Of a DNA stretch of 64,000 bases, positions 11,301 to 63,263 are shown one piece after another. The position numbers were made by a program, and so were the translations under genes. Below the pieces are notes generated by a model. That model was not told the DNA's origin, ran no database searches, and saw only the letters and a program-made list of their open reading frames with translations. The DNA is from Balamuthia mandrillaris (lineage: Eukaryota; Discosea; Longamoebia; Balamuthiidae). The stretch covers positions 1 to 64,000 of the forward strand of contig JAVKOQ010000152.1 in the NCBI GenBank assembly GCA_031835245.1, written 5' to 3'. The number at the start of each line of letters is the position of its first letter. The first letter of the stretch is position 1.

Positions 11301-12255
11301 ACTAGAAGGAGAAATAAAGAACAAAGAAGAGGAAGAAAAAGAAAGCGAAGGAGAAATGCATGCGGAACAGATGGAAGAAGTGGAAGAAGAGAATGGAGAT
11401 GTCATCAAACGGAAACAGCAAGTGCAAATGGTGATACGGATCCTGGATCGAGCTCGTCACTTTGCTCCCTCTCGATCACGAGAGGTACGTCTTTTGGTTC
11501 TATCCATACTCCAACGCGGCATCATGCTGCTCAGCACTGATCGCAGGGCCTTACTTCCTACCGTTCACGAGATTTGGCTTCCTCTCACGCATCGCCTTCA
11601 TGATTACGACGATGACACGAACGAGGAAGACGAAAAGAATAAGCAGAAGAGAATGACGATTACGAATGAGAAGAAGATGAAAAAGAAAGAAGATCCGGCG
11701 GTAAAGATTAAAGTTTTAGAAGTGGTGGCGACTATATGTGAGCAAGCAGGCGATTTCGTGTTTCACAAGTTTAAGGAGGACATCTGGCCGGTGCTGGTGC
11801 GGCATCTGTTGCCTGAACAACGAAGGGCTCTCGCGAAGGAACTGTCAATGTACAGTTTTGCAAGGCAGAACGAATCGCGCTTTTCTTCGTCTGCTTCTTC
11901 TTCCTCTTATGTTTATATGACGAGTTTCAAGCTGCAAGACGCCGCTTTGGAATGTGTGGAGGCGATGGTGAGGCACAGCCTTCGAGACTATTCTTCAGCT
12001 CAGTTCAAGACGGAAGTGGTGCGTGCTTGCTTGGAGTATATCCCTCTCCCTTCCTCTGAAAGTGCTATGACGATGACGAAGAACAAGACGGTGAAAGAGT
12101 TGGAGGGCAAAGCCATTTCGATTATGAAGAGAGTGTTGGAGTTGAACCCACCAGAGGAGGTTGTGGAAATGGTGGCTCCTCTCGTGGCAAGCTATCCAGT
12201 TCTTGTTATCACCAACAAGATGAAAGAGGAGGGCAATGGGATGGATCTTCCCTAA
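8307..12255 (+). CDS. TTI1: TELO2-interacting protein 1 (TTI1) homologue
   Basis: TTI1 is a HEAT-repeat scaffold of the TTT complex (TELO2-TTI1-TTI2) that matures PIKK kinases such as mTOR, ATM and ATR. Exon 1 (8307-8649) opens with VFALLKPICSQLM and DYLLFPLFALL, the conserved N terminus. Exon 2 starts at 8739; the last two coding blocks are ~9282-9803 and 9898-12255. Between 9217 and 9300 the frame changes twice. One frame ends in DNDPLM, a second carries FVFPGLVSTLAGKVFLGD and a third begins LKQGQSVRAAALG. The last two together match a conserved TTI1 stretch, but I found no intron that fits both phases, so this gene has either a disabled stretch or sequence errors. The C-terminal half holds an acidic insert (about 11216-11420) and conserved segments KVLEVVATICEQAGDFV and FKLQDAALECVEAMV. 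The start is the first in-frame ATG. Confidence 0.8.
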
Positions 12256-12747: not shown

Positions 12748-13625
12748 ATGGAAAGAATAGACTTTAGTCTGCTGGCTGACAGCGACGTGGACTCTAGGTA
12801 CACCATGGGTGACCGCGCCACTGCCACGACCACTGCCACAGTCACCCGACGCCCATCATCGGGACACAATGAGCGTTATGTGGCCGGCTGGAAAAATCCT
12901 CCCAGGTCTGCCACTTCCTCTGCATCCTCCTCCTCGTCCTCCTCTTCCTCTTCCTCTTCCTCTTCCTCTTCCCCTTCATCTTTGCATGCTCCTAGCGGAA
13001 GGTCCGCTTCCTCTACTTTGCATGGCCCTGACGGTAGGTCCGCTTCCCCGTCCGCTTCCTCTTCCTCCTCTTTGCGTGCCCCTAGCGGTCTCCGACCTTC
13101 CGAGGAAGTTGGCCTCAGCTTCGTCAAGTCCGCCGCCCCTTTTCCGGCACGTTCCACGAGTGCCACTCGCGCAGTATCTTCCAATAAAAGGGAGCGCCTG
13201 TTGCAACGCAACGAGGAGATCAAGCACAGCCTGTTGGCCCTGAAGCGAGCACAGCAGCTGGACCTTTGTTTCCTTATGGACTGCACCGGGTCCATGCAGA
13301 GCTGGATCGATCAATGTCACCAGAGCATCTCGGTGGTCATTCGTGTGGTCCAGGAGCGCTTCCCTTTGCTGAAGGTGCGGGTTGCCTTTGTTGGCTACCG
13401 GGACCACAGCGACCCACCCGAGATCCACTTCGAGGTCTTCCCCTTCGGTTCCCTGCTGGACTTTCAGGCATTTGTTCGCAGGGTACGCGCTCAAGGAGGC
13501 GGCGACGCCCCGGAGGACCTGCTGGGTGGCCTCCATAGAGCGCTCCGCCTAAACTGGGAGCACGAGACCCGCGTGCTGATCCACATCGCGGACTGCCCAT
13601 GCCACGGCCAGCGCTACCACGACGT
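12748..13625 (+). pseudogene. vWFA domain, 5' half of a broken vWFA/alpha-kinase gene
   Basis: VwkA-type proteins join a von Willebrand A domain to an atypical alpha-kinase domain. This piece has a Thr/Ser-rich N terminus with a poly-Ser run (~12930-12990), then a vWFA domain: DLCFLMDCTGSMQSW (MIDAS DxTGS), VRVAFVGYRDHSD, FVRRVRAQGGGDAPEDLLGG, LNWEHETRVLIHIAD and CPCHGQRYHD. The family normally continues with a DSY...G segment; instead homology stops at about 13625, although the frame stays open to 13767 with unrelated sequence (FKRKDARVDNRAPP). The missing continuation (VYSPRKDSYIDGEPHG) reappears at 15495, in a frame that joins cleanly as HDV+YSPRKDSY if 13626-15494 is removed. No GT-AG intron fits that junction. 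Confidence 0.75.
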
Positions 13626-49395: not shown

Positions 49396-51081
49396 TTAAC
49401 GAAGAGTAACGCCAAGCTTTTCCACTGCCAAGTGACGCACTTGCTCCTGGATTTGGTTGATCTCCTCGTTCGTCAAACTCCTCTCCATCGAGCGGTAGCT
49501 GATGCGATAGCATCTGCTCTCCACTCCTTTCTTGGGGTGGACGAACCGATCCACCTCCTCCACGCTCTCTACCAGCTCGTTGCCAACGCCACGAACCACT
49601 TCGAAGAACGAGTTCTCGTGAAACGCAGAAGAAGCAGGAGCAGAAGGAGCGGGAAGCCAAAAGGCGATGTCGCGTTGAACCAAAGGATACTTGCTGAAAG
49701 GTTTGAACTTGGTGTTCATGTCCAACACTTGTTCTTCTGGCGGAATAGAAGAAGAAGGAGAAGGAAGAAACTGGCTGAGGAATCGTTTGTCTTGCACCCA
49801 GAACAAACGAATGTCTGGAATGCCAAAGAGGATCATGGCCAGTCGTTCCAGCCCGATGCCAAAGGCCCAACCTTTCTTGGCTCCCAAGCCACACTGCCGC
49901 ATGATGTCCTGATGGACCACACCGCAGCCGAGGACCTCCAGCCAGTCCTTGTCCTCGAAGAAGATCTCCATCTCCCAGGAAGGATGAGTAAAGGGGAAGT
50001 AGGCGTCCACCCAACGGATGACAAGGTCGGGGCCAAAGATGGAGCGGACCATGCCCTCAAGCTTGGACTTCATGTCCTGCTCTACTAGTTGCAGGTTGGC
50101 CTCCTCGTTGAGGGACAGTTGGTGAGGTTCAAAGACGCGCACGCCTTCCATTTGGTGAAAAACCTTTTTGGTTTACCAAAGGTGTTTTGTGACAACAATG
50201 AGTAATGAGAAAGAAGCAGAGCGGCCTCGGTAGAAGAAGTAGTAGTAGACGAAGAAGAACAAGAAGAAAGAAAGAATAAGAACAAGAAGTGGAAGAAGAA
50301 CAACAACAACAAGAAGAAGAACAACGCGAGAGAGAGAAGCAGAAAGAGAGAATGACGGAGAAGATAAGAGGCAGCAACAAACCGGTGAGTGAGTCCGATC
50401 GATGGTGTCCCTCCGATACACATCCCCAGTGACAAGAAACGCCCCAACCCCCTCCCTCAACAGCTGGTTCTGATGCGCGCTGGTGTGAGTGCGCAGCAGC
50501 GTCGTTCGGTTGAGGTAGTAGGTGTCGTTGGGGCTGCGGCCGACGTGATCCTCGGGAAAGAGCAGGTCGTCAAAGTTATCTTTCACGCTCACGATGGGAC
50601 TAAAGTTGTCATACGTGCGGAAGAGCGCGCGGTGAGGGTCTTGGGGGTGAGGGTCTTTGCCCTCCTCCAGCGGAAAAGCGGTGAAGTAGCGCTCAATCTT
50701 TCGTTTGCACGTGTTGAGCGGGTGGAAGGGTTGGCGATGCAGGTTGACGCCCAGTCTTTGGATGAGGGAGGCGGGGACGTTGTTGGTCTCGTCCGGGATC
50801 ACATCTTGCAAGAGGGGATGAGTGTAGTGGCCTACCACCAAATGAAATAAAAGAGAGATTAATCGAGCGAGAAAAAAGAAGAGAAGAGAGGGAGGAAAAA
50901 AAAATGTACGAGATGTGGATGAAGACGCAGTTGTGGTGGAGAAGAAGCGGCGATGAGCGAAACGAGAGCCAGGGAGAGTAAAGGCGAGAAGTCCTGGTTT
51001 GGATGGCGCGTGCAGCGCTGGACGCAGGCCGTGATGGCGCCAAGCCATGCGCCAAGGGAGGGTAGCCGCTGCTCCTTCCAT
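49396..51081 (-). CDS. FARS2: Mitochondrial phenylalanyl-tRNA synthetase
   Basis: Charges mitochondrial tRNA-Phe as a monomer. Three exons join in phase: 51081-50910, 50831-50383, 50163-49396; 462 residues. The N terminus is rich in Arg, Ala and Ser without acidic residues (WRMAWRHHGLRPALHAPSKP), as in a mitochondrial presequence. Class II core motifs: HPLLQDVI, YDNFSPIVSVKDNFDDLLFP, TSAHQNQLLREG, FLVTGDVYRRDTIDRTHSPV+FHQMEGVRV, WVDAYFPFTHPSWEMEIFFE, WLEVLGCGVVHQDIM and AFGIGLERLAMILFGIPDIR. The C-terminal anticodon-binding (FDX-ACB) domain is seen as FSKYPLVQRDIAFWLP, VEEVDRFVHPKKG and YRISYRSMERSLTNEEINQI. Length and order match the animal and yeast mitochondrial enzyme. Confidence 0.96.
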
Positions 51082-51233: not shown

Positions 51234-51942
51234 ATGGCTCGGGAGAAACCCAAAACCACGAACAACAAGAGGAGGCTTTCTTCTGAGCCGACCACTACAG
51301 CACCCGCACCCCGTAAGAAGGTCTCGTCATCATCATCATCCTCCTCTTCCCAAGCCGCGTACAGCAACGTCGGTACCATCGATGGCTTCCCCGCGGAAGT
51401 GGCCGCTCACCTCATCGGCTTTCTGCCTTGGGTCGATCGGCTCAGCCTTCGTTGTGCCAGCTCCCTGTGGCTGGCCTTGGTCCATGGCGCTTGCCCTGCT
51501 CTTCGCAGGGACGTGAAGGTGGCCGCGTTACGCGGGCTCTCCAGAAACCTGAAGCAGGAGAGCTTGTTCAGTTGCGGGGGCACCACCCGCCTGACTGAGC
51601 CTCTCCAACTGTTCTTCAACAGGCAACAAACTACGGGAAAAGAAGAAAAGCGATGTGGCAAGGGCAGTTGCCAGTTTTTGAGCTTCCCTCTTGTCGAACA
51701 CCGAAAGAACGGCCAAGGAAGAGGCGCACTTCTGGAGGAGGAAGGGGAGGCGTTGAGGGAGCTGATAGAGTGCTGTTCGCCAGCCACGTTTGGGAGAGGC
51801 AACAAGGAGGTCTTGGACTCCAGCTACCGTGATGCCTTGCAGCTCTCCCCTGATTTGTTCACCACCAACTTTCATGTGTCAGAGTATGATATCCTTGACA
51901 AGGTCTGTTGCTCGCCTTTTTACTCTCTATCTTGTATCTCTG

Positions 51943-51980
<38 letters not shown>

Positions 51981-53225
51981 TTCTTACACGTACCCAAAAC
52001 ATTTCTCCTACAGATAAAACGAGTGATAGCACCAAGAAGTTGGAGAATACGAGCAGAGCTGTACAAACTGAACATCTACGCAGCGGGCGGGCACTTCAAA
52101 GCACACGTGGACACTCCTCGCGGGGATGGCATGTTCGGCTCCTTGGTGGTTTGCCTCCCCACTTCCTTCAAGGGAGGACAGTTGCTGGTCCGCCATTCTG
52201 GCCGCCAAGTTGTTTTTCCATTGGGTGGCGACAACGAATATGAAGAAGAAAAAGAAGAGGAAGGAGGGGAAACGGCATGTGGAGTCAAATGGGCAGCATT
52301 CTATTCGGACTGTGAGCATGAGATACTTCCTGTGACGGAAGGCCATCGAATTACTCTCACCTACAACCTTTACTCCGATGTCAAAACAGTGGAAGAAAGT
52401 AATGTGACGGAGAAGGGCACCTCTGTGGAGGACAAGCAAAAGAAGCAGTATTTGGATGGAAGCAACTACCAGCAATCGGTGAATGTGGCACTTGTCAGAA
52501 GAAAGCTGAAGGGTTTGCTGCTAGATGAAGATTGCTTCCCCGAGGGCGTTACGCTAGCCTTTCAGTGCAAACACAGCTACGCGTGCGAGGAATTCTCACG
52601 AGCTCCGGATCCTTCTTCCTTGCTCAAAGGCTTCGACGCTTTGGTACATGAAGCAGCCGTCAGTCTCGGTTTGAAGACTTCACTGAAGTGCTTCTTCACG
52701 CATCAGATCGAGTGGTTTAAAGCCTCAGGACCATCAGTGCTACTCATGTGTGACACCTTTCCCAAAGCAGTCTCCCTCCTTCCAGACCTGTGCGTTGGCA
52801 ACGAGGCTGACTATACCGACCTCCAGTTCCTTCGTGACACTTTCCCATCTCTCCAAGTGTTGGTGGACGCCATTCCGTTGAACCCAGCTTCTAAAGACAA
52901 AGAGGAAGAGGAAGAAGAAGGAGAAGAAGAAGAGGAAGAAGAAGAACAAGAAGAAGAAGAAGAACAAGAAGAAGATGATGATGAACAACACCAAGAAGGA
53001 AAAGAAGAAGATGATGGGCAGGAAGCAGAAGATGACGAGGAGGAAGAAGAACTGCGCAACCTTCCAAAAAAAGCGGTGCAGTGGTGCACGGACAAACCGG
53101 TGGTAACCAGGGACACCCTGGTGGCAGTGACGGCCGCCTGGGGCAACGAGCCCTCCGTTTCTGGCTTTTACGTCTCCGCTTTACTCCTCGTTGAGATGCC
53201 TTGTTGGGGTGAAAGGTCGCCCTGA
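51234..53225 (+). CDS. F-box + 2-oxoglutarate/Fe(II) oxygenase, array copy A
   Basis: Two exons, 51234-51902 and 52014-53225, join in phase 0 (ILDK+IKRVIAPRSW); 626 residues. Exon 1 has an F-box-like helix pair (FPAEVAAHLIGFLPWVDRLS, LRCASSLWLALV) and LFSCGGTTRLTEPLQLFF. Exon 2 holds a prolyl-4-hydroxylase-like fold: LYKLNIYAAGGHFKAHVDTP (iron His254 and Asp256), MFGSLVVCLPTSFKGGQLLV, FYSDCEHEILPVTEGHRITL (iron His325; Arg335, ten residues on, suits 2-oxoglutarate). After LLKGFDALVHEAA and a long acidic run comes the conserved end KAVQWCTDKP and TAAWGNEPSVSGFYVSALLL. Iron and co-substrate residues are complete. Probably an F-box-recruited oxygenase; its substrate is unknown. The intron is CT repeat. 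Confidence 0.88.
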
Positions 53226-53396
53226 ACAATTTGGCCCTCCACCGCATGCCGAGCCTCTGCTCTCCTCTGTTCGAGCGGAATGAGAAAATAAAGCAACAAG
53301 TACGCCAACAAGTGAAACAAACGGAAGAACACTAAAAATTCGAAACAGCGAAATGATCAGATCATAATTCCATTCACCAATCAAAAATCAAAAGGT

Positions 53397-54002
53397 ATGA
53401 TTGTTGTCGACGAAAACAACCATAAAAGGTGCTCTAAGAGACGGCGCGTCCGGCAAGAAAGTAAGAAATTGAGTAGCAGCGAAGAGGGAAAACTGGTAGC
53501 AAAGAAGAGACGAGAGAGCTGCACGATGGGCAAAGGCAACGACCACGGGAAGAAAGGGAGGGACGGTAGGGAAAGCAACCCAAAACAAAAAAACTCTGCG
53601 GCAGGCGGAGGTGTGATATGTTTATCATTGGAATTCTGACCTCTCTCACTCGTGCGCTACATTGTTTCTTCTGTTCCCAAACAGTGGCAAGCGGCATACG
53701 AAAAGCATTATCATGAAGAAGTTCCAGAGGAACTGGCCGACCTGGACCTGGTCGAAATCATGGCCCTCGTCAACTGCTATGTGGCGATGGCACCATTGAC
53801 AGCAACGATCACTCAACCGCCTTTCTATCCTCTACAACGAGAGCTTTGGGATCGTGGCGGGAGATCCTGTCGGTATGCGCAGCGGAAGGCCCCGCAAGTT
53901 GATCTGTGGATTCTGTTGAGCACCAACCAGCCACCAGCTTTTCGCACTTCTTTCGCTTTTTCTTCTTATCGTCGTCATCATAGCCTCATCGTGAATGGAT
54001 GA
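53397..54002 (+). CDS. Candidate two-exon gene of unknown function
   Basis: Exons 53397-53612 and 53685-54002 join in phase 0 across a 72-bp intron (GTGATA...AAACAG), giving 177 residues. The N-terminal half is basic and lysine-rich (KRCSKRRRVRQESKKLSSSE, KKRRESCTMGKGNDHGKKGR), suggesting a nuclear protein; the second half begins WQAAYEKHYHEEVPEELADL and continues DLVEIMALVNCYVAMA. No family recognised. It lies between array copies A and B but does not resemble them. It may be a real small gene, an exon set of a larger one, or chance. Confidence 0.35.
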
Positions 54003-54158
54003 GAAGGAGGCGGAGGAAGAGGATGATGGGGGTGATGAAGCACAATCACATCAAAAGACTTGCACCCCACCGGCCTAGCCAGTAAGGTGCATCAGTGAGC
54101 TCTTCTTCGGCTCCCTCTTCTTCGCGAAAATTTTCCTAGAAGAAAACTTAGAAGCAGA

Positions 54159-55896
54159 ATGAAAAGAAAACGTTCGTCACCCGCTGCTTCACCTTCACCC
54201 ACAGGAACTCACAAGAAGGTTGCTTCCCAATGCACGGTGGATAGCCTGGTCTGCCTCGATGGTCTTGCTCCCGAGGTGGCCACTCACCTCATCCAATTCC
54301 TGCCTCTGGTGGACAAGCTCAACCTCCGGTGCGCCAGCTCCCGTTGGTTGGCCCTGGTTCACGCCTCCTGTCCCGTTCTTCGTAGAGCTGTGAACGTGGC
54401 CGCATTGCGAGGCCTCTCCAGACGCTTCTCCAGACAAGAGAGCCTGTTCTGCTGCGGTGGCACCACCCCGCTCGCCCAACCCCTCCGATTGTACCTCAAA
54501 AGAGAGCAACAGGGAAGCGTGGCAAAAGGAACCTGCCAGGTTCTCAGCTTTCCGCTGGTGAAGGGCCAACAGAACAAAGTGCAAGGAGAAGGAAAGGCAT
54601 TGAAGGAGGGTTTGGCGGCCGCGTTTGGGAGAGGCTGCGAAGAGGTTCCACGTGCTTTGCAGCTTCCTGCTTCTTGCTTCGCCGTAAACTTTCATGTGGC
54701 TGACATCCTTGACAAAGTTTGTTGCTTCTGCTGCTAGTTCTCTTAGGCGCTTTTACTCCTGTTTACTTTGTTTATTTGTCTTTCTTATCGTCTTTCTCTC
54801 TTTTGGCTTCCAGATAAAACGAATATTATCACCACACAGCTGGCGGATCCGAGCAGAGCTGCACCAGCTGGACATCCACAGCGCAGGCAGCCACCCCGCC
54901 TCTCATGTGGACGCTTCGCAAGAGAATGGCACGTTCGGCACTTTAGTGGTCTGTCTTCCCACTTCTTTCAAAGGCGGAGAGCTGCGCGTCAAACGTGTAC
55001 CATCCCAAGTTCTGTTCCCGCTGAGCAATGATGAAGGAAACGAGAGCAACAACGAAATGGAAGAGGAAGAAGGTCAGGCATCGAGGCGTGAGGTCAAATG
55101 GGCAGCATTACTATCGGGGTGTGAGCATGAAATCCTTCCTTTGATGGAAGGCCACAGCGTCGTCCTCACCTACAAGCTCTACACCGACAACAAGAATGCA
55201 AAAGGCACGAAACAGCAAGAAGAGAGGCAGCCAGATACCACACCGGATGGAGAAGGATACAAAACACAATGCTTTGATATGGAAGCAGTGCGGAAGAAGT
55301 TGAAGGACATACTTGCAGACGACGCTTGTTTTCATGAGGGTATGACCCTGGCCTTTCACTGCAGGAACGTCTATACCTGTGAGGACATGTCACGAGCTCC
55401 ATATCCTCCCTCCTTGCTAAAAGGCTTTGATGCTTTGGTTCATGATGCAGCCGAGAGCGTTGGCTTGAAGACTTCGCTCAGGTGTTTCTCCGCACTGCAG
55501 GCATCCGGCCAGGCCACCCTGCTGATGTGGGAGACCTATCCTTCTTCGGTGAATTGGTCAGAGTGGGGAACTAATGACTTTTGCTCCCAACTTCGGTTTC
55601 TTCTGTGGAACTATCCAACGCCTCGTCTGTTGGTGGACGCCACTTCTTCAGATGGAACCGACATTCCTCTTGGAGGACTCGACGACAAGATGCAAGAAGA
55701 GGTGAGGCAAATGTGGGAGAGCATTCCCAAAAAAGTGGTGCAGTGGTGCACGGATAAGCCAAAAGAGTCAAGCGACACGCTCGTGGCAGTGACAGCAACC
55801 CAGGGCTACGGTTTAGATTCAGGCATTGCAAGCTTCTACGTCTCTGCCTTGCTCCTTGTGGAAGTGCCGCCACGTTTGGGCGAACTGAGAGGCTGA
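54159..55896 (+). CDS. F-box + 2-oxoglutarate/Fe(II) oxygenase, array copy B
   Basis: Two exons, 54159-54716 and 54814-55896, in phase 0 at the same position as the other copies; 546 residues. Exon 1: LAPEVATHLIQFLPLVDKLN, LRCASSRWLALVHASCPVLR, LFCCGGTTPLAQPLRLYL. Exon 2: LHQLDIHSAGSHPASHVDAS keeps the HxD iron pair, and SGCEHEILPLMEGHSVVLTY keeps the distal histidine, but the presumed 2-oxoglutarate arginine (GHR in copies A, C, D, E) is serine here (GHS). The GGHF before the HxD is GSHP. The acidic linker near the end is short (DDKMQEEVRQMWESI). C-terminal motif KVVQWCTDKPKESSDTLVAV and SFYVSALLLVEV is kept. Activity is doubtful or cofactor binding is altered. Confidence 0.85.
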
Positions 55897-55950
55897 GAGA
55901 GAGAAGGCCTATATTAAAAATATTTTTCCTGGAAGTATTTTGTAACGCAC

Positions 55951-56421
55951 ATGGAGGAGAACAGCACCAGCAACGACGACGGAGAACGGAAGGGAGGAAC
56001 GCCTGCCCGGTTCTTCTTCAGCGGTAAAGACTTGTTACGGCTTGCACAACTGCAGCAACAACAGCAACAGCAAGCCTTTGCAATCAGGGAAGCCAAAGCG
56101 GCGGAGGAGGAGGAGGAAGAGGAGGACAAAGAAAGCGTCTTGGCTGCTGCGCTTTCTGCAGACCCCTTTCTGCTGGAGCATGACCCGTTCGAGCCTCTTA
56201 CCCAGGAGGAGGCCGAAGAGGAAGACATTTTCGCTGCGACAACCACAGCAGCGAGAGCGTTGGAAGCGGTGGTTTTAGGGTTTGTTGTTTCGGTGCAGCT
56301 GCAAACTTTTTGTTTGTGAACTCACCCTTTGTGGACGCCCTAACAGAAAGGTTTTTGGAGAGAGCTTGCTAAGGACCAAAAAGAGGAAGCGTTCCTCCGC
56401 CGCTTCCTTCCCACCGGTTGA
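55951..56421 (+). CDS. Small acidic protein of unknown function
   Basis: Two exons, 55951-56271 and 56347-56421, split by a 75-bp GT-AG intron (GTTTTAG...CTAACAG); 131 residues. The product has PARFFFSGKDLLRLAQLQ, a Gln run, an acidic run (EEEEEEEDKESVLAAALSAD), PFLLEHDPFEPLTQEEAEEE, and after the intron a compact ending KGFWRELAKDQKEEAFLRRF then LPTG and TGA at 56419-56421. The ending looks like a conserved helical motif but I cannot name the family. It lies inside the oxygenase array and its stop codon abuts the truncated start of copy C. Confidence 0.5.
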
Positions 56422-56425
56422 TGGG

Positions 56426-58357
56426 ACGTGTTTTATCGACGAGCTCACCCGAGAGCTGGCCGCTCGTGTCGTCCGCTTTCTGCCTTTTCTCGACAAGCTC
56501 CACCTTCGTCAAGCCAGCTCCAGTTGGCGCAACCACGTTCATGGCTCTTGTCCCATTCTTCGGCGGAGCGTGAAGGTGGCTGCTTTGAAGGAGCTGGCCA
56601 AGAACTTCAGACAAGGGAGCTTGTTCAGCTGTGGCGGCACCTCCCCGCTCACTCAACCTCTCCAACTCTTCTTCCACAGCAAGCAAGGCCAAGCAGAGCA
56701 AGGCACTTGCGAGTATTTGAGCTTTCCCCTTGTTGAACAGAGAGGGAGAGAAGGGATGCAAACGGAGGGAGAAGCATTGCAGGAGCTTATGGCGTGCTGT
56801 TCGGCAGCCACGTTTGGAAGAGGCAGAGAGGAGGTCTTGGACCCCAGCTATCGTGATGCCTTGCAGCTTTCGCCTGCTTTGTTCGATACCAACTTTCACG
56901 TTGCGGAGTATGATATCCTTGATAAGGTTTGTTCTTCTTCTTCTCAGCCGTTGCTTGTTGTTGTTCTTCTCTGTCGTTCGGCCTCCTAAGTTATCTTCAT
57001 TGCCTCGCTGGATTGTAGTTTCTCCCATTCTCTTGTCTCACCTTCATTGACCTGTACAGATAAAACGAGTGATAGCACCAAGAAGTTGGAGAATACGAGC
57101 AGAGCTGTACAAACTGAACATCTACGCAGCGGGCGGGCACTTCAAAGCACACGTGGACACTCCTCGCGGGGATGGCATGTTCGGCTCCTTGGTGGTTTGC
57201 CTCCCCACTTCCTTCAAGGGAGGCCAGTTGCTGGTCCGCCATTCTGGCCGTCAGGTTGTGTTTCCATTGGGTGGTGAGGACGAAGGAGGAGACACGAATG
57301 GCAGAGAAGAGGAAGGAGGAGGACAGTTGCGATGTGAGGTCAAATGGGCGGCGTTCTACTCGGATTGCGAGCATGAGATACTTCCTGTGACGGAAGGCCA
57401 CCGAATCACCCTCACCTACAACCTTTACAGCGAACCCGAACGAGAACCACCACCAGGCAAGCAACGCAACAAAGTGAAAGAGCAGGAAGAGAAAGGAGAA
57501 GAGAAGACGACCAATGATAAGGAACAAAATGGAGATGGCAGTGCACAGCAACAAGCGTTGAATGTGGGCATCGTGAGAAGCAAGCTGAAGGACCTCCTCG
57601 TGGATGAAGGATGCTTCCCGGAGGGTGTCACCCTGGCTTTTCAATGCCAGCACAGCTACGCCTGCACAGAAGCCACCGCCTCCCAAGCTCCCAATCCTTC
57701 CTGCTCAAAGGCTTCGACGCTGTGGTTCAGGAGGCCGCAGAGAGCCTCGGCTTGGAGACCTCTCTCAAGTGCTTCTTTGCTCATCATCAGCTATCGCGCC
57801 CGCCATGGTGGGCAGCGGCCGCTCCATACGCCCTGCTGATGTGCGACGCCTTCCCCAGGGCCATCTCCGTTTCGGACTTTGTCGTTTGCGAAGGGGCTGA
57901 CCTTGACGGGCTCACCTTCCTCCTTGAGCGCTATCCCTTGCCGCTCCACCGCTTGGTGGATGCCATCCCCTTCGATGAGGCCCAGGCTCACCCAGGGTGG
58001 CTCCACCGGAGGGCAGAGCGCCTCGTCGAGCTGATGGCTGGCCAGGGGTTCACCAGAGGCGAGGCGCAGAGCCTGCTGTTAGAGCTGGTGGAAGAAGCAG
58101 CAGAAGAAGAAGAGGAGCGCAAACGAGAGGAAGAGAATGAAGACGAAGAAGAACAAGAACAAGAAGAGGAAAAGGACCGCGACGGTATGCACAGGCTTCC
58201 CAAGAAGGCGGTGCAGTGGTGCACGGAAAAGCCGATGAAGGCCAGGGACACCCTTGCAGCAGTCACAGCTGCCTGGGGCAACTCGCCCTGCACGTGGGGC
58301 TTTTACGTCTCCGCCGTGCTCCTTGTGGAGCTGCCCTCTTGGCAACAAAGACGGTGA
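56426..58357 (+). pseudogene. F-box + oxygenase array copy C, 5'-truncated and frameshifted
   Basis: Homology to the other copies starts abruptly at CFIDELTRELAARVVRFLPF, about 5 bp after the stop of the small acidic gene; no in-frame ATG precedes it before a TAG. Exon 1 runs to 56926 (ILDK), exon 2 from 57060. The oxygenase core is intact: LYKLNIYAAGGHFKAHVDTP, FYSDCEHEILPVTEGHRITL. At about 57700 the motif that reads APDPSSLLKGFDAL in copy A is SQAPNPS/CSKASTLWF here, because about 4 bp are missing; the expected LLKGFDAVVQEAAESLGLE continues in the next frame to the normal end (KAVQWCTEKP, TAAWGNSPCTWGFYVSAVLL) at 58357. The first 165 bp of exon 2 are identical to copy A. Confidence 0.8.
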
Positions 58358-58491
58358 CGCCTCTTAGGGGCGCTCGGGCTGGAGCAGGAAGCATGGAAGC
58401 ATGGAAGCAACATGGGTCTTTTCGGGTCCCCAGTCACCTTTTTTTGTTATAACAGAAAGTGAGAGAATAGCGAAGAAGAAGCTCAGATCAG

Positions 58492-60498
58492 ATGGAGAGT
58501 CCCACCAAAGCGAAAAAGAGGAGGAAGCTCTCCAGCAATGACGAGGATGCCTTCCCCCGAGCTGCTGCCGGTCAGGCCTGCCTCGAGGGCCTTCCTCCGG
58601 AGGTGGCCATCCACCTCATCCACTTCCTGCCGTTGTTGCCCGACCGTCTCCGCCTTCGTCAGGCCAGCTCGCGTTGGCTGGCCCTGGTCCACGCCTCCTC
58701 CTCGGCTCTCCGTAGGGGCGTGAAGGTGGCCGCTTTGAAGGAGCTCTCCAAAGAGGAGGGCTTGTTCAGTTGTGGGGGCACCACCCGACTCGCTCAACCC
58801 CTTCAGCTCTTCTTCTTCCACAAGAAGCAGCAAGAGGCACCACGAGATCAAGATGAAGAAGAGGAAGCTGAAGAGGAGGAAGGACTTGATCGACGAGGAA
58901 GTTGCCAGTTTTTGACCTTTCCTCTTCTCGGCCGAGGCAGACAGGTGGGGAGAAGAAGCACAAGAGGAGCGGTGGGGCTGGAAGGAGAGGCGCTGAAGGG
59001 GCTGATAGCCTGCTGCTCGCCAGCCACGTTTGGAAGAGGCAGCGAGGAGGTGCTGGACGGGAGCTACCGGCATGCCTTGCAGCTCTCCCCTGCTTTGTTC
59101 ACCACCAACTTTCATGTGGCACAGTATGATATCCTTGACAAGGTCTCTTTCTCTTTCGCTTTCGTCGTTTCTCTTTCTCTTTCTCTTTCTCTATATTCTC
59201 TTTCGTCGTTTCTCTTTCGTCGTTTCTCTTTCGTCGTTTCTCTTTCTTTTTCTCTTTCTCTTTCGTCGTTTCTCTTTCTCTTTCGTCGTTTCTCTTTCTC
59301 TTTCTCTTTCTCTTTCTCTTTCGTCGTTTCTCTTTCTCTTTCGTCGTTTCTCTTTCTCTTTCGTCGTTTCTCTTTCTCTTTCTCTTTCTCTTTCTCTTCC
59401 TCACCCACTCCAACAAACCCAGATAAAGCGTGTGATAGCGCCACGCAGTTGGAAGGTCCGCGCAGAGCTGTACAAGCTGAACGTCTATCCTCCCGGCGGG
59501 CACTTCAAAGCACACGTGGACACTCCTCGCGGGGATGGCATGTTCGGCTCCTTGGTGGTTTGCCTCCCCACCTCCTTCCAGGGAGGAGAGCTCGTGGTCC
59601 GACAGTCTGGCTCGGAAGTTGTGTTCCCACTGAAGAGCGGCGACGAAACGGAGAAAGGAGGAGCACAGGAAAAGGAAGAAGAGAAGAAAGGAGAGAATGG
59701 TCGGACGGAGTCAGGCTGCAACGTCCGATGGGCGGCGTTCTACTCGGACTGCGAGCATGAGATACTGCCCGTGACGGAGGGTTACCGCATCACCCTCACT
59801 TACAACCTTTACACTGAAGGGAAAGAGGAACCAGAAAATAAACCATGGTGGGAGGAGGATGAGGACGACTTCATTGGCGACGAAGACGAAGAAGAGGACG
59901 AAGAGGACGAAGAGGACGAAGAGGATGAAGAAATGATGAAGATGCTAGAGGAGATGAAGAAGGAGCAAGAAGCGAAGAGGAAGGAGGAGGGAGAAAAAAG
60001 GGAGAAGGCGAATGGGGATGGCAGCCACCAGCAAGCCCTTAGCATGGAGTTGATCAGAAAGAAGTTGGAGGCTATACTTTCTGACGAAGAGTGCTTCCCC
60101 GAAGGCGTTACCTTGGCCTTTCACTGCAGGCACAAGTATTCTTGTGATGAAGTCTCTCGAGCCCCAGACCTTTCCTCCTTGCTCAAAGGCTTTGATGCGT
60201 TAGTAAACGAAGCTGCAGAAATCCTTGGCTTGAAGACGTCCCTCAAGTGCTTCTTTACTCTCTATCTGAAAAGTATGTGCCTGCCGAGCGATAAACCGGC
60301 CCTGCTTATGTGCGACGCCTTCCCAAAAGCTCTGCAAGTCCACGACGTCTGTGTTGGAGAGGAGCTAGACAGTTCTGACTTGAACTTCCTTCGTTTCTCC
60401 TATCCATCACTCCATTTGTTGGTGGATGCCCTTCCTCCCATTGGCGCTGAAGCCGAAACGGAGAGAATGAAGAACCGGAAGGATGTGAAAGAGAAAGC

Positions 60499-60537
<39 letters not shown>

Positions 60538-60784
60538 AGAGGAAGAAGAGGAAGACGATGAAGACTCCGAAGAAGAAAGAAATAAGGCTGCCTTGAAGAA
60601 ACTGCCGACAAAGGCAGTCCAGTGGTGCACTGACCAACCTACGGAAGAGGCCGACACGCTGGTGGCGGTGACCGCCGCCTATGGCAACGAGCCTTCCACC
60701 GCGAGCTATTATGTCTGTGCGTTGCTCCTTGTGGAGATGCCGTCTCGGGAACAACGCGCTAGCTTTGGAGGGTCCTCTTTCTGA
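58492..60784 (+). CDS. F-box + 2-oxoglutarate/Fe(II) oxygenase, array copy D
   Basis: Two exons, 58492-59142 and 59423-60784, phase 0; 670 residues, the longest copy. Exon 1: MESPTKAKKRRKLSSNDEDA (basic, nuclear-signal-like), LPPEVAIHLIHFLPLLPDRL, LRQASSRWLALVHASSSALR. Exon 2: LYKLNVYPPGGHFKAHVDTP, MFGSLVVCLPTSFQGGELVV, FYSDCEHEILPVTEGYRITL, so the HxD...H iron triad and the arginine are complete. Two acidic/Glu-rich inserts ([39 protein letters not shown]) flank the second half. The ending KAVQWCTDQPTEEADTLVAV, TAAYGNEPSTASYYVCALLL matches the family. The 280-bp intron is made of TTTCTC and TTTCGTCG units. This and copy A look the most likely to be active enzymes. Confidence 0.88.
59143..59422. 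repeat. TTTCTC/TTTCGTCG repeat filling the intron of copy D
   Basis: Nearly the whole intron between donor GTCTCTTTC and acceptor AACCCAG is a mixture of TTTCTC hexamers and a 9-base unit TTTCGTCGT, in higher-order groups repeated several times. Pyrimidine-rich on the sense strand, as in other introns of this window. The other copies have short CT introns at the same place, so this one has expanded. Confidence 0.9.
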
Positions 60785-61221
60785 ACCCATGATACGAACG
60801 AGCGACTCTAGGTCAACAGGAAAGAAGACGTCTCTTCACTCATGTTATAAAAGAGCAAAGTTTTTACGAAAGATGTGGGCAAGAGAAGAAGAAGAAGAAG
60901 AAGAACAAGAACAAGAAGAAGAGGAAGCAGAAAGAGAATATTCACAACGCAGGCACCGCTGTGAAGGTATCCTGTGGCAACGAGCCCATCCATTACCGTG
61001 GCATTATCTATTGTCGCTGCACTCTGCTCCTTGTGGAAGTGCCTCCTTGGGTGAACCACGGAGAGCCATTGCGGACAAAGAAAGCGTTTCGCAACGCCCA
61101 TGAAGTGAAAAGCAAGAATAGAATGGACCACTCATAAACCAGCTTTTGCAATTAACGTGTTACAAAAGCAACGTGGGACGTAACCACCAAGAAGGTCAAC
61201 TCAGCGTGGGGGTCACAAAGC
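60785..61221 (+). pseudogene. Relic 3' end of another oxygenase copy
   Basis: In one frame 60960-61055 reads VKVSCGNEPIHYRGIIYCRC followed by TLLLVEVPPW. This matches the shared C terminus of the array (TAAYGNEPSTASYYVCALLL, VEMPS in copy D) but nothing upstream does; a short acidic stretch ([17 protein letters not shown]) at 60878-60940 in a different frame would correspond to the acidic linker. So this looks like the decayed tail of a sixth copy between D and E. The rest of the interval has no gene. Confidence 0.6.
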
Positions 61222-63263
61222 ATGCTCAAGAAGGTTTTTTCACGCTCTGCTGGCTCCACCGACCGTTCACCGCCTGAAGCGGCCAAACCCATCGGGAACG
61301 GCGTCGTCGGTAATGGCCCCCAATTCATCGATGAACTCGCCACGGAGGTGGCCTTTCTTATCCTCAGCTTCCTGCCTCTGCTGGACAAGCTCAACCTCCG
61401 GTGCGCCAGCTCCCGTTGGTTGGCCCTGGTTCACGCCTCCTGCCCCGTTCTTCATAGAGCTGTGAACGTGGCCGCGTTGCGAGGCCTCTGCAGTAGCCTC
61501 TCCGCACAAGAGGGCTTGTTCTGCTGTAGCGGCACCACTCCGCTCGCCCAACCCCTCCAGCTCTTCTTCCACAAACCGCAGCAACAACAACAACAAGAAG
61601 AAGAAGTAGCAGAGCAAGGCACTTGCAGATTCTTGAGCTTTCCTCTCGTTCCTAAGGGAAAAACAACGGGAGGAGTGGTGGAGAGGGAAAGAGAGGCGCT
61701 GAAGGAGCTGATGGCCTGTTGCTCCCCGTTTGGAAGAGGCAGCAAGCAGGTCTTGGACGCGAGCTACTATCATGCCTTGCAGCTTTCTTCTGCTTGGTTC
61801 ACCACCAACTTCCGCCTGGCAGAGTACAATCTCCTTGACAAGGTTTGCTGCTGTTCTTCCTTGTTTGGCCTCTTCTCTTTCATCTTATCTCTTTCTCTTT
61901 GTTGGTTATACTTCCACCTCAGATAAAGCGTGTGATAGCGCCTCAAAGTTGGGGAATACGAGCAGAGCTGCACAAACTGAACGTCTATCATCCTGGAGAA
62001 CATCTATCCTCCTCCTGCAGTAACTTCAACACCCGCGAGGCAGCTGAGAGTGAGGATTGGCTGTTCGCCTCTTTGGTAGTCTGTCTTCCCACATACAGCG
62101 AAGGAGGAGAGTTGCGGGTAAGACATGGGCAGTTTGAAAAGGTTTTCCCGTTCGACAGCAGAGGTGAAGGCAGTGGAGAAGGAGAACCAAGCAAAGAAGA
62201 CAAGAAAGACAACGGAGGCAGAGGAAGTGGCACGACGACCGGATGTGAGCTCAAATGGGTGGCATTCTTTGGAGATTGCGAGTCCGAAGTACAGCGTGTG
62301 AGGGAAGGCCACCGGATTACTCTCACCTACAACCTCTATTGCAACACCAACCGCGAGCCAACAAAGAAAAAGCACAAGAAGCGGACCAAGAAGGCAAAGG
62401 CAAGAAAACAAAAGCAACCGGTCGTGGACGTGGAATGGATGAGAAAGAAGTTGGAGGCCATTCTCATGGACAAGCATTGCTTCCCTGAAGGGGTTACGTT
62501 GGCCTTTCAATGCAGACACAAATACGCATGCGAGGAGGTCCCACAACCGCCCGATCCCGAGTTCATCTCCTTGCTACCCCACACCTATTACAGCTATGCC
62601 GGGACAGAAGCTTTGCCAGCTCCAGATCTTTCCTGTTTGCTCAAAGGCTTTGATGCTTTGGTTTATGAGGCAGCTGAGAGCCTTGACTTGAAGACATCCC
62701 TCAAGTGCTTCTTCGCCCACTATCTGAACAATAGGAAGGATCGACCGCCGGTGTTGTTGATGTGTGACCCCTTCCCGAGAACGGTGAACCTCTCCGATAA
62801 TGACGTGGACAAGGACCTTGGATTCCTCAGCAAAAACTTCTGGTTGCGTTTGCTGGTGGACGCCGTCCCTGGCGACAACGTCAACAGGCACCGAGAATGG
62901 CAAGTGCAACAGCTAGTTCACCAGTGTGGGTTCTCCAGACACACGGCTCACTTGATGGTCAAACACAGCGCAGAATACAAGGAGTATGCTAACGTTTGCT
63001 CACCCGAAAGGATAGCAAGATTGGAGAAAGAACTTGGGCAAGCCCTTCCGAAAAAAGTCGTGCAGTGGTGCACCCACATGCCAATCCACACAACGGACAC
63101 GCTCATTGCGGTCAGGCCAAAGGCAAACAGAGCCTGTTATGTCTCTGCACTGCTCCTGGTTAAAGTGCCCTCTTGGGAACAACGAAGCGGGTTGTCACCC
63201 AACCGGAAAGCCAAAGGCCGAAAGAAAGGGAAGAAAAAGAGAAAGCAAAAGTTCACTTTGTAG
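61222..63263 (+). CDS. F-box + oxygenase-like protein, array copy E, iron site lost
   Basis: Two exons, 61222-61842 and 61923-63263, phase 0; 653 residues with an undamaged frame. Exon 1: FIDELATEVAFLILSFLPLL, LRCASSRWLALVHASCPVLH, LFCCSGTTPLAQPLQLFF. Exon 2 keeps the fold (IKRVIAPQSWGIRAELHKLN, LVVCLPTYSEGGELRVRHGQ, EGHRITLTYNLY) but the iron HxD is replaced: GGHFKAHVD of copy A aligns with GEHLSSSCS here (Ser238, Ser240), and the distal CEHE is CESE. The arginine is kept. An added segment (TYYSYAGTEALPAP) follows the position of APDPSS, the acidic linker is replaced by RIARLEKELG, and the tail is basic (KAKGRKKGKKKRKQKFTL). A pseudoenzyme that may keep binding roles is the simplest reading. 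It ends 10 bp from the convergent SPRY gene. Confidence 0.85.

Follow-up and report, generated by a model that had tools for sequence, protein, structure and literature searches.

Five paralogous genes in tandem, each with two exons, are found in the free-living amoeba Balamuthia mandrillaris within a stretch of 64,000 nucleotides (contig JAVKOQ010000152.1, positions 1 to 64,000; called the window below). They occupy positions 51,234-63,263, all on the + strand, and their products are predicted to join an F-box near the N terminus to a 2-oxoglutarate (2OG) and iron-dependent oxygenase of the prolyl 4-hydroxylase (P4H) type. The paralogues in the array share 64-87% of their DNA sequence, with BLAST E values down to 0, and an array of five such copies is far beyond chance. 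An initial annotation, made from the sequence alone, had described five copies in the same orientation, and this description is borne out.

The structure of the genes is the best starting point, as it shows that both parts belong to one protein. In all five copies the intron starts with GT, ends with AG and lies in phase 0 directly after a conserved LDK, and its sizes are 111, 97, 133, 280 and 80 nt for copies 1 to 5. The initial annotation placed this intron after ILDK throughout; position and phase agree in five out of five copies, and in copy 5 the residues before it read LLDK. It also assigned the F-box to exon 1 and the hydroxylase to exon 2, which is not how the genes are built: exon 1 codes for the F-box and also for the first ~110 oxygenase residues. 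Across 66 aligned proteins, residues G84, P116, A150, F152, G153, D161, Y164, R165, A167, F175 and F179 of the paralogue P0003 are near-invariant, and since all of these precede the splice site at K189, the intron interrupts the enzyme and does not mark a domain boundary. The splice junction is identical to that of the window copies in paralogues on other contigs (C52, C577, C94 and C58/C352). One divergent paralogue, C79, has no intron at the junction; its F-box and oxygenase-like region form one frame of 629 amino acids, annotated as a single protein (P0121). The intron inside the oxygenase and the single frame of C79 contradict two separate genes. The annotated fusion of both parts in one polypeptide thus holds, on the strength of the profiles, the gene structure, the intronless C79 and the shared clade described below. 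GenBank proteins correspond to three of the five copies (2, 3 and 5): P0005 is identical to copy 5 as modelled, and P0006 (copy 2) and P0001 (copy 3) both have additional predicted introns. For copies 1 and 4 there is no identical protein among the best 120 of 743 database matches. The intron of copy 1 (window 51903-52013) is open in frame, and with its 111 nt a retained intron would preserve the reading frame.

For the family as a whole, the profiles point to an F-box near the N terminus. Exon 1 of copy 5 (61222-61842) scores above the cut-off of Pfam PF00646 (E 2.8e-4), that of copy 3 (~56321-56926) just below it (E 4.8e-4), and that of copy 2 (54159-54716) below it (E 5.3e-3). In copy 4 (58492-59142) the best match is PF12937 (E 1.9e-4), under the cut-off of that family, and PF00646 is also below its own (E 0.043). 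The paralogues P0002, P0004, P0007, C398 and C79 are all above the PF00646 cut-off. A comparison with hhalign between a profile of 11 fused F-boxes and five unrelated F-boxes of the same genome gives a probability of 94.7 and a score of 37.3; among 200 column shuffles the best probability is 43.9 and the best score 22.0, and the reversed control reaches 0.3. The structure model of P0003 has three helices at residues 22-54, with a predicted local distance difference test (pLDDT) value of about 77-80. The fold search made with this model spans residues 77-456, which is the protein without its F-box region, so the missing F-box structures among its matches are uninformative. The reading of exon 1 as an F-box can therefore be kept for several members by their Pfam scores and for the family by the hhalign result; copy 1 (51234-51902), with its F-box at ~51378-51480, is weak when taken alone. 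F-box exons are plentiful in this genome (scoring of the top 150 out of 889 candidates put every one above cut-off), which also contains Skp1 and cullin genes, with 6 and 35 matches respectively.

The oxygenase module is more uneven among the copies. PF13640 (2OG-FeII_Oxy_3) is above cut-off in copy 1 (E 7e-8, read through the intron), copy 3 (E 3.8e-8) and copy 4 (E 1.3e-8), and in these three the HxD...H iron triad and the 2OG-binding arginine are intact. Copies 2 and 5 have no 2OG profile match in Pfam at E<=1: exon 2 of copy 2 (54814-55896) keeps H-D-H and has Ser in place of the 2OG-binding Arg, and exon 2 of copy 5 (61923-63263) is oxygenase-like with the entire triad lost, its iron ligands H-D-H changed to R-A-S. 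Some copies cannot be enzymes, and the P4H-like domain that was annotated in each copy is confirmed by profile in copies 1, 3 and 4. The P0003 model and its fold matches show a double-stranded beta-helix of the prolyl-hydroxylase type; Dictyostelium PhyA is among the matches, as one of many P4H folds with similar scores. At the sequence level P0003 has no meaningful match in the PDB (9 rows, best E 0.41). JmjC and Cupin_8 domains find no match in the window exons (E<=1) or in the paralogues (E<=0.1).

Exon 2 encodes the oxygenase core, acidic stretches and a C-terminal region in copies 1 (52014-53225) and 4 (59423-60784), the only two copies that combine an open frame with all four catalytic residues. 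The shared architecture annotated for all five copies does not fully hold for copy 3, where exon 2 (57060-58357) has an intact oxygenase core and changes frame at ~57,700, from where coding continues in another frame to 58357. This change is either real or introduced by the assembly. In the exon 1 frame of copy 3 the first ATG is at 56756, with none ahead of the F-box, and the GenBank model P0001 draws its start from an upstream exon. Two further features were annotated as common to all copies, and each holds in part. The acidic linker is present as a long stretch in copies 1, 3 and 4 only, and the C-terminal end GNEP...YVSALLL varies: GNEP is absent from copies 2 and 5 and replaced by GNSP in copy 3, and copy 4 ends in YVCALLL. 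Between copies 4 and 5, a frame on the + strand (60793-61137) contains the C-terminal motif CGNEP...LLLVEVPPW at 60973-61050. This stretch is possibly the relic of a sixth copy, and no profile match supports it.

The copies have probably exchanged sequence. Overall DNA identity between copies 1 and 3 is about 72%, but the tract 52009-52204 in copy 1 and 57055-57250 in copy 3 (both + strand) is identical at 195 of 196 bases. It covers the portion of the active site that holds HxD and is likely the result of gene conversion. In a similar way, copies 2 (54256-54486) and 5 (61328-61558) share a 231-base piece of the F-box exon at 86.6% identity, and the identity is far lower outside this stretch, which makes a second local exchange likely. 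Nei-Gojobori ratios of nonsynonymous to synonymous substitution (dN/dS) are 0.20-0.23 for the recent pair C94/C352, 0.15 for the catalytic exon of copies 1 and 4, and higher, 0.27-0.48, for pairs with copy 2 or 5; the values are rough, because dS is near 1 in many divergent pairs. By these ratios the coding sequence is under constraint.

Outside the window, the family is spread over the Balamuthia genome. A search with exon 1 finds 19 stretches, five of them in the window. Further matches are on C94, C52, C577, C79, C58, C352, C398 and C237; C58 and C352 are identical across the 3,441 bases compared, and C398 and C237 have equal scores and an exact 500-base stretch in common. Fragments are found at C237:79543 and on C684 and C250, and the matches on C6 and C125 contain the enzyme part only. 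Relatives of the fused genes broken by stops or frame changes are seen at C684, C237:79543 and C398/C237:31857. In the protein database, seven fused proteins are found among the best 120 of 743 matches, and seven again among the best 120 of 1,238 matches in a second search; in both cases all fusions are from Balamuthia and stand at the top. The N-terminal region of P0002 finds four proteins, exclusively from Balamuthia. None of 99 scanned non-fusion homologues has an F-box at E<=0.01 (these are part of the 113 non-fusion proteins among the best 120 of 743), and neither do any of nine longer ones taken from both searches at E<=0.1. In the searches made here the F-box and PF13640 fusion is found only in Balamuthia; these searches detect only relatives that share exact words, so the fusion may also occur in other lineages. 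A maximum-likelihood tree of 78 catalytic domains (11 fused, 11 non-fused from Balamuthia, and 56 external ones, every second of 111; copy 3 trimmed ahead of its frameshift) sets the 11 fused members apart from the 67 others with an ultrafast bootstrap value of 97. As the fused members split off with this support, a single fusion followed by duplication is the simplest account. A viral or phage origin is unsupported, with no match for P0003 by tblastn in phage records and no relative encoded in any of 11 viral-contig stretches that match the search patterns.

Other combinations of these domains occur in the same genome. On contig C149 (positions 1-2500 examined), L088:692-1462 on the + strand is a frame of 257 amino acids in which a match to the later portion of PF13640 (E 1.6e-9) is followed by an F-box (PF12937, E 1.3e-13), the reverse of the domain order in the array family. 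An HxD motif is found in the preceding frame and an actin-like frame downstream at 1600-2433 (PF00022, E 1.8e-21). Possibly these belong to one P4H-F-box-actin gene, a candidate joining; among plant proteins, the actin-related ARP8 has an F-box. Five single frames of about 930-980 amino acids (L031, L034, L035, L037 and L038, on contigs C16, C208, C127 and C40) have a related 2OG domain and, towards the C terminus, a long uncharacterised region, with no F-box at the start. On C55 a 2OG domain (11969-12211, +) and an F-box (13243-13380, -) lie on different strands with about 1 kb between them. Upstream of the array, the - strand of the window carries a phenylalanyl-tRNA synthetase-like gene at 49396-50172 (PF01409, E 4.8e-32; PF03147, E 1.2e-17).

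What the fused proteins do can be proposed in steps of different strength. Our leading reading, a tentative one, is that copies 1 and 4 are F-box proteins that use a P4H-type 2OG oxygenase as their client-binding module. Docking on Skp1 of a Skp1-cullin-F-box (SCF) ubiquitin ligase would fall to the N-terminal F-box, and binding of a specific client, with its hydroxylation in a manner dependent on O2, 2OG and Fe, to the oxygenase. The same SCF complex could then ubiquitylate the hydroxylated client. Skp1 binding is quite probable, and so is catalysis by the intact copies. That a hydroxylated client is ubiquitylated via the same polypeptide is possible, and we hold it with much less assurance; the initial annotation had likewise inferred a protein that both modifies its target and recruits it to an SCF ligase. 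Copies 2 and 5 and C79, with dead or damaged active sites, would be binding-only receptors or decaying genes. The most far-reaching form of the proposal is an oxygen-gated SCF receptor of the PHD/P4H type in one chain, which hydroxylates its client and presents it for ubiquitylation, with an array exchanged by gene conversion that provides several receptors, the dead-enzyme ones binding clients without O2 control. We consider this form unlikely. P4H-type oxygen sensing by PHD2 or PhyA marks a protein that is then read by a separate ligase receptor; if the proposal is true, a single chain holding both the marking enzyme and the ligase-docking module would short-circuit that pathway. The paralogues, some intact and others short of the Arg or the triad, also form a natural series in which one can ask directly which functions depend on catalysis.

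Several observations weigh against this reading. Exon 1 of copy 1 and of P0003 has no F-box match in Pfam, a small hidden Markov model of Balamuthia F-boxes is weak for both (E 0.019 and 0.2), and the F-box region modelled alone from five window sequences gives low confidence (pLDDT 50.1). Copies 2 and 5 are short of catalytic residues and copy 3 is frameshifted. The pairwise dN/dS values between divergent copies rest on dS near 1, the order within the fused clade is weakly supported (31-59 at several nodes) and the C79 branch is very long. Finally, for JcdI, an F-box oxygenase of Dictyostelium, the O2-sensitivity effect seen on overexpression required catalysis and other domains, not the F-box (PMC9485057). 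Caution is due for the modify-and-recruit reading for this reason, and docking and hydroxylation need not share a client. The same results make a self-regulated oxygenase a serious rival, somewhat unlikely as it may be: the clients would not be SCF substrates, and the F-box would serve only stability, location or the turnover of the enzyme itself, as proposed for JcdI, whose F-box may mediate a reduced JcdI level (PMC9485057). However, the dead-enzyme members copy 5 and C79 retain recognisable F-boxes, a fact that fits better with a role for binding and docking that does not need catalysis.

Improbable, by comparison, is an array of mostly decaying tandem duplicates of one useful ancestral fused gene, with little present function. 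The frameshift in copy 3, the catalytic residues lost in copies 2 and 5, the broken relatives on other contigs and the possible relic at 60973-61050 would all fit, but copies 1 and 4 are intact, with the low dN/dS between their catalytic exons, and copies 2 and 5 still hold long open frames. It is more improbable still that the target of hydroxylation is Skp1 or a different SCF component kept close by the F-box, with the oxygenase acting as a tethered PhyA-like enzyme. The fold match to PhyA favours this idea, but PhyA is only one of many similar-scoring folds, no sequence feature points to Skp1 as a substrate, and PhyA is not known to have an F-box. Skp1 hydroxylation is known in amoebae (PMC9485057), which speaks for it. 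An artefact, either from two adjacent genes joined in the reading or from a helix bundle that only resembles an F-box, draws on the marginal individual scores of several copies and is highly improbable, being largely refuted already by the intron within the enzyme, the single-frame C79 and the shuffled profile controls.

Known systems put the fusion in context. The initial annotation took the pairing to be undescribed, but JcdI and JcdH of Dictyostelium already combine an F-box with a JmjC domain, which rules out a wholly undescribed pairing (PMC9485057, also for what follows on JcdI). There, JcdI (Fbxo13) binds Skp1 via its F-box and is an O2-limited dioxygenase with an apparent Km of 22% O2, and JcdI and JcdH belong to F-box-bearing groups across protists and plants. 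Binding and activity are demonstrated for JcdI, whereas they are predicted for the Balamuthia family. The likeness lies in a single chain with an F-box at its N terminus and a 2OG oxygenase, an amoebozoan host and a proposed O2-linked function. The catalytic domain of JcdI and JcdH is of the JmjC/JmjD6 type and theirs are single genes, whereas the Balamuthia proteins have a PF13640 domain of the P4H type and form a multigene family that includes dead-enzyme members.

In animals, KDM2A/B (FBXL11/FBXL10) also carry an F-box and a 2OG oxygenase on one polypeptide, in this case a JmjC demethylase with chromatin-reading domains, a CxxC finger and leucine-rich repeats. None of JmjC, CxxC finger or leucine-rich repeats is among the profile matches of the window exons or paralogues. 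The alias FBXL10 appears in PMC11241480. PHD2-VHL and PhyA-Skp1 resemble the proposed function in that a P4H-type fold links O2 to cullin-RING ligases; they differ in that hydroxylase and ligase receptor are on separate proteins. Also close are standalone members of PF13640, a family found in fungi, algae, sponges and uncultured eukaryotes, with names such as 'Fe2OG dioxygenase' or 'P4Hc domain' proteins and uncharacterised going by these names. They share the entire oxygenase, including the N-terminal CGG...FGxG...SYR region and the C-terminal GNE region, and are the proteins in which the scan of 99 found no F-box.

A P4H-type F-box fusion was not found in the literature searched, in which subscription papers were mostly outside the scope. 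The titles and abstract openings of papers on Balamuthia and F-boxes contain no such fusion, and the main texts of two Balamuthia genome and transcriptome papers do not mention dioxygenase, oxygenase, hydroxylase, F-box or ubiquitin. Within two lists of F-box genes of the genome, each limited to the best 150 candidates, no Cupin_8/JmjC gene is adjacent to an F-box gene by eye; such neighbours may lie beyond these lists. Because JcdI/JcdH and KDM2 use JmjC, and the Balamuthia family uses PF13640 with no JmjC match, the Balamuthia fusion is an independent combination. The pairing of an F-box with a 2OG oxygenase is already known; new is the P4H-type catalytic module, which would add a second way, next to JmjC, of arriving at an F-box oxygenase protein.

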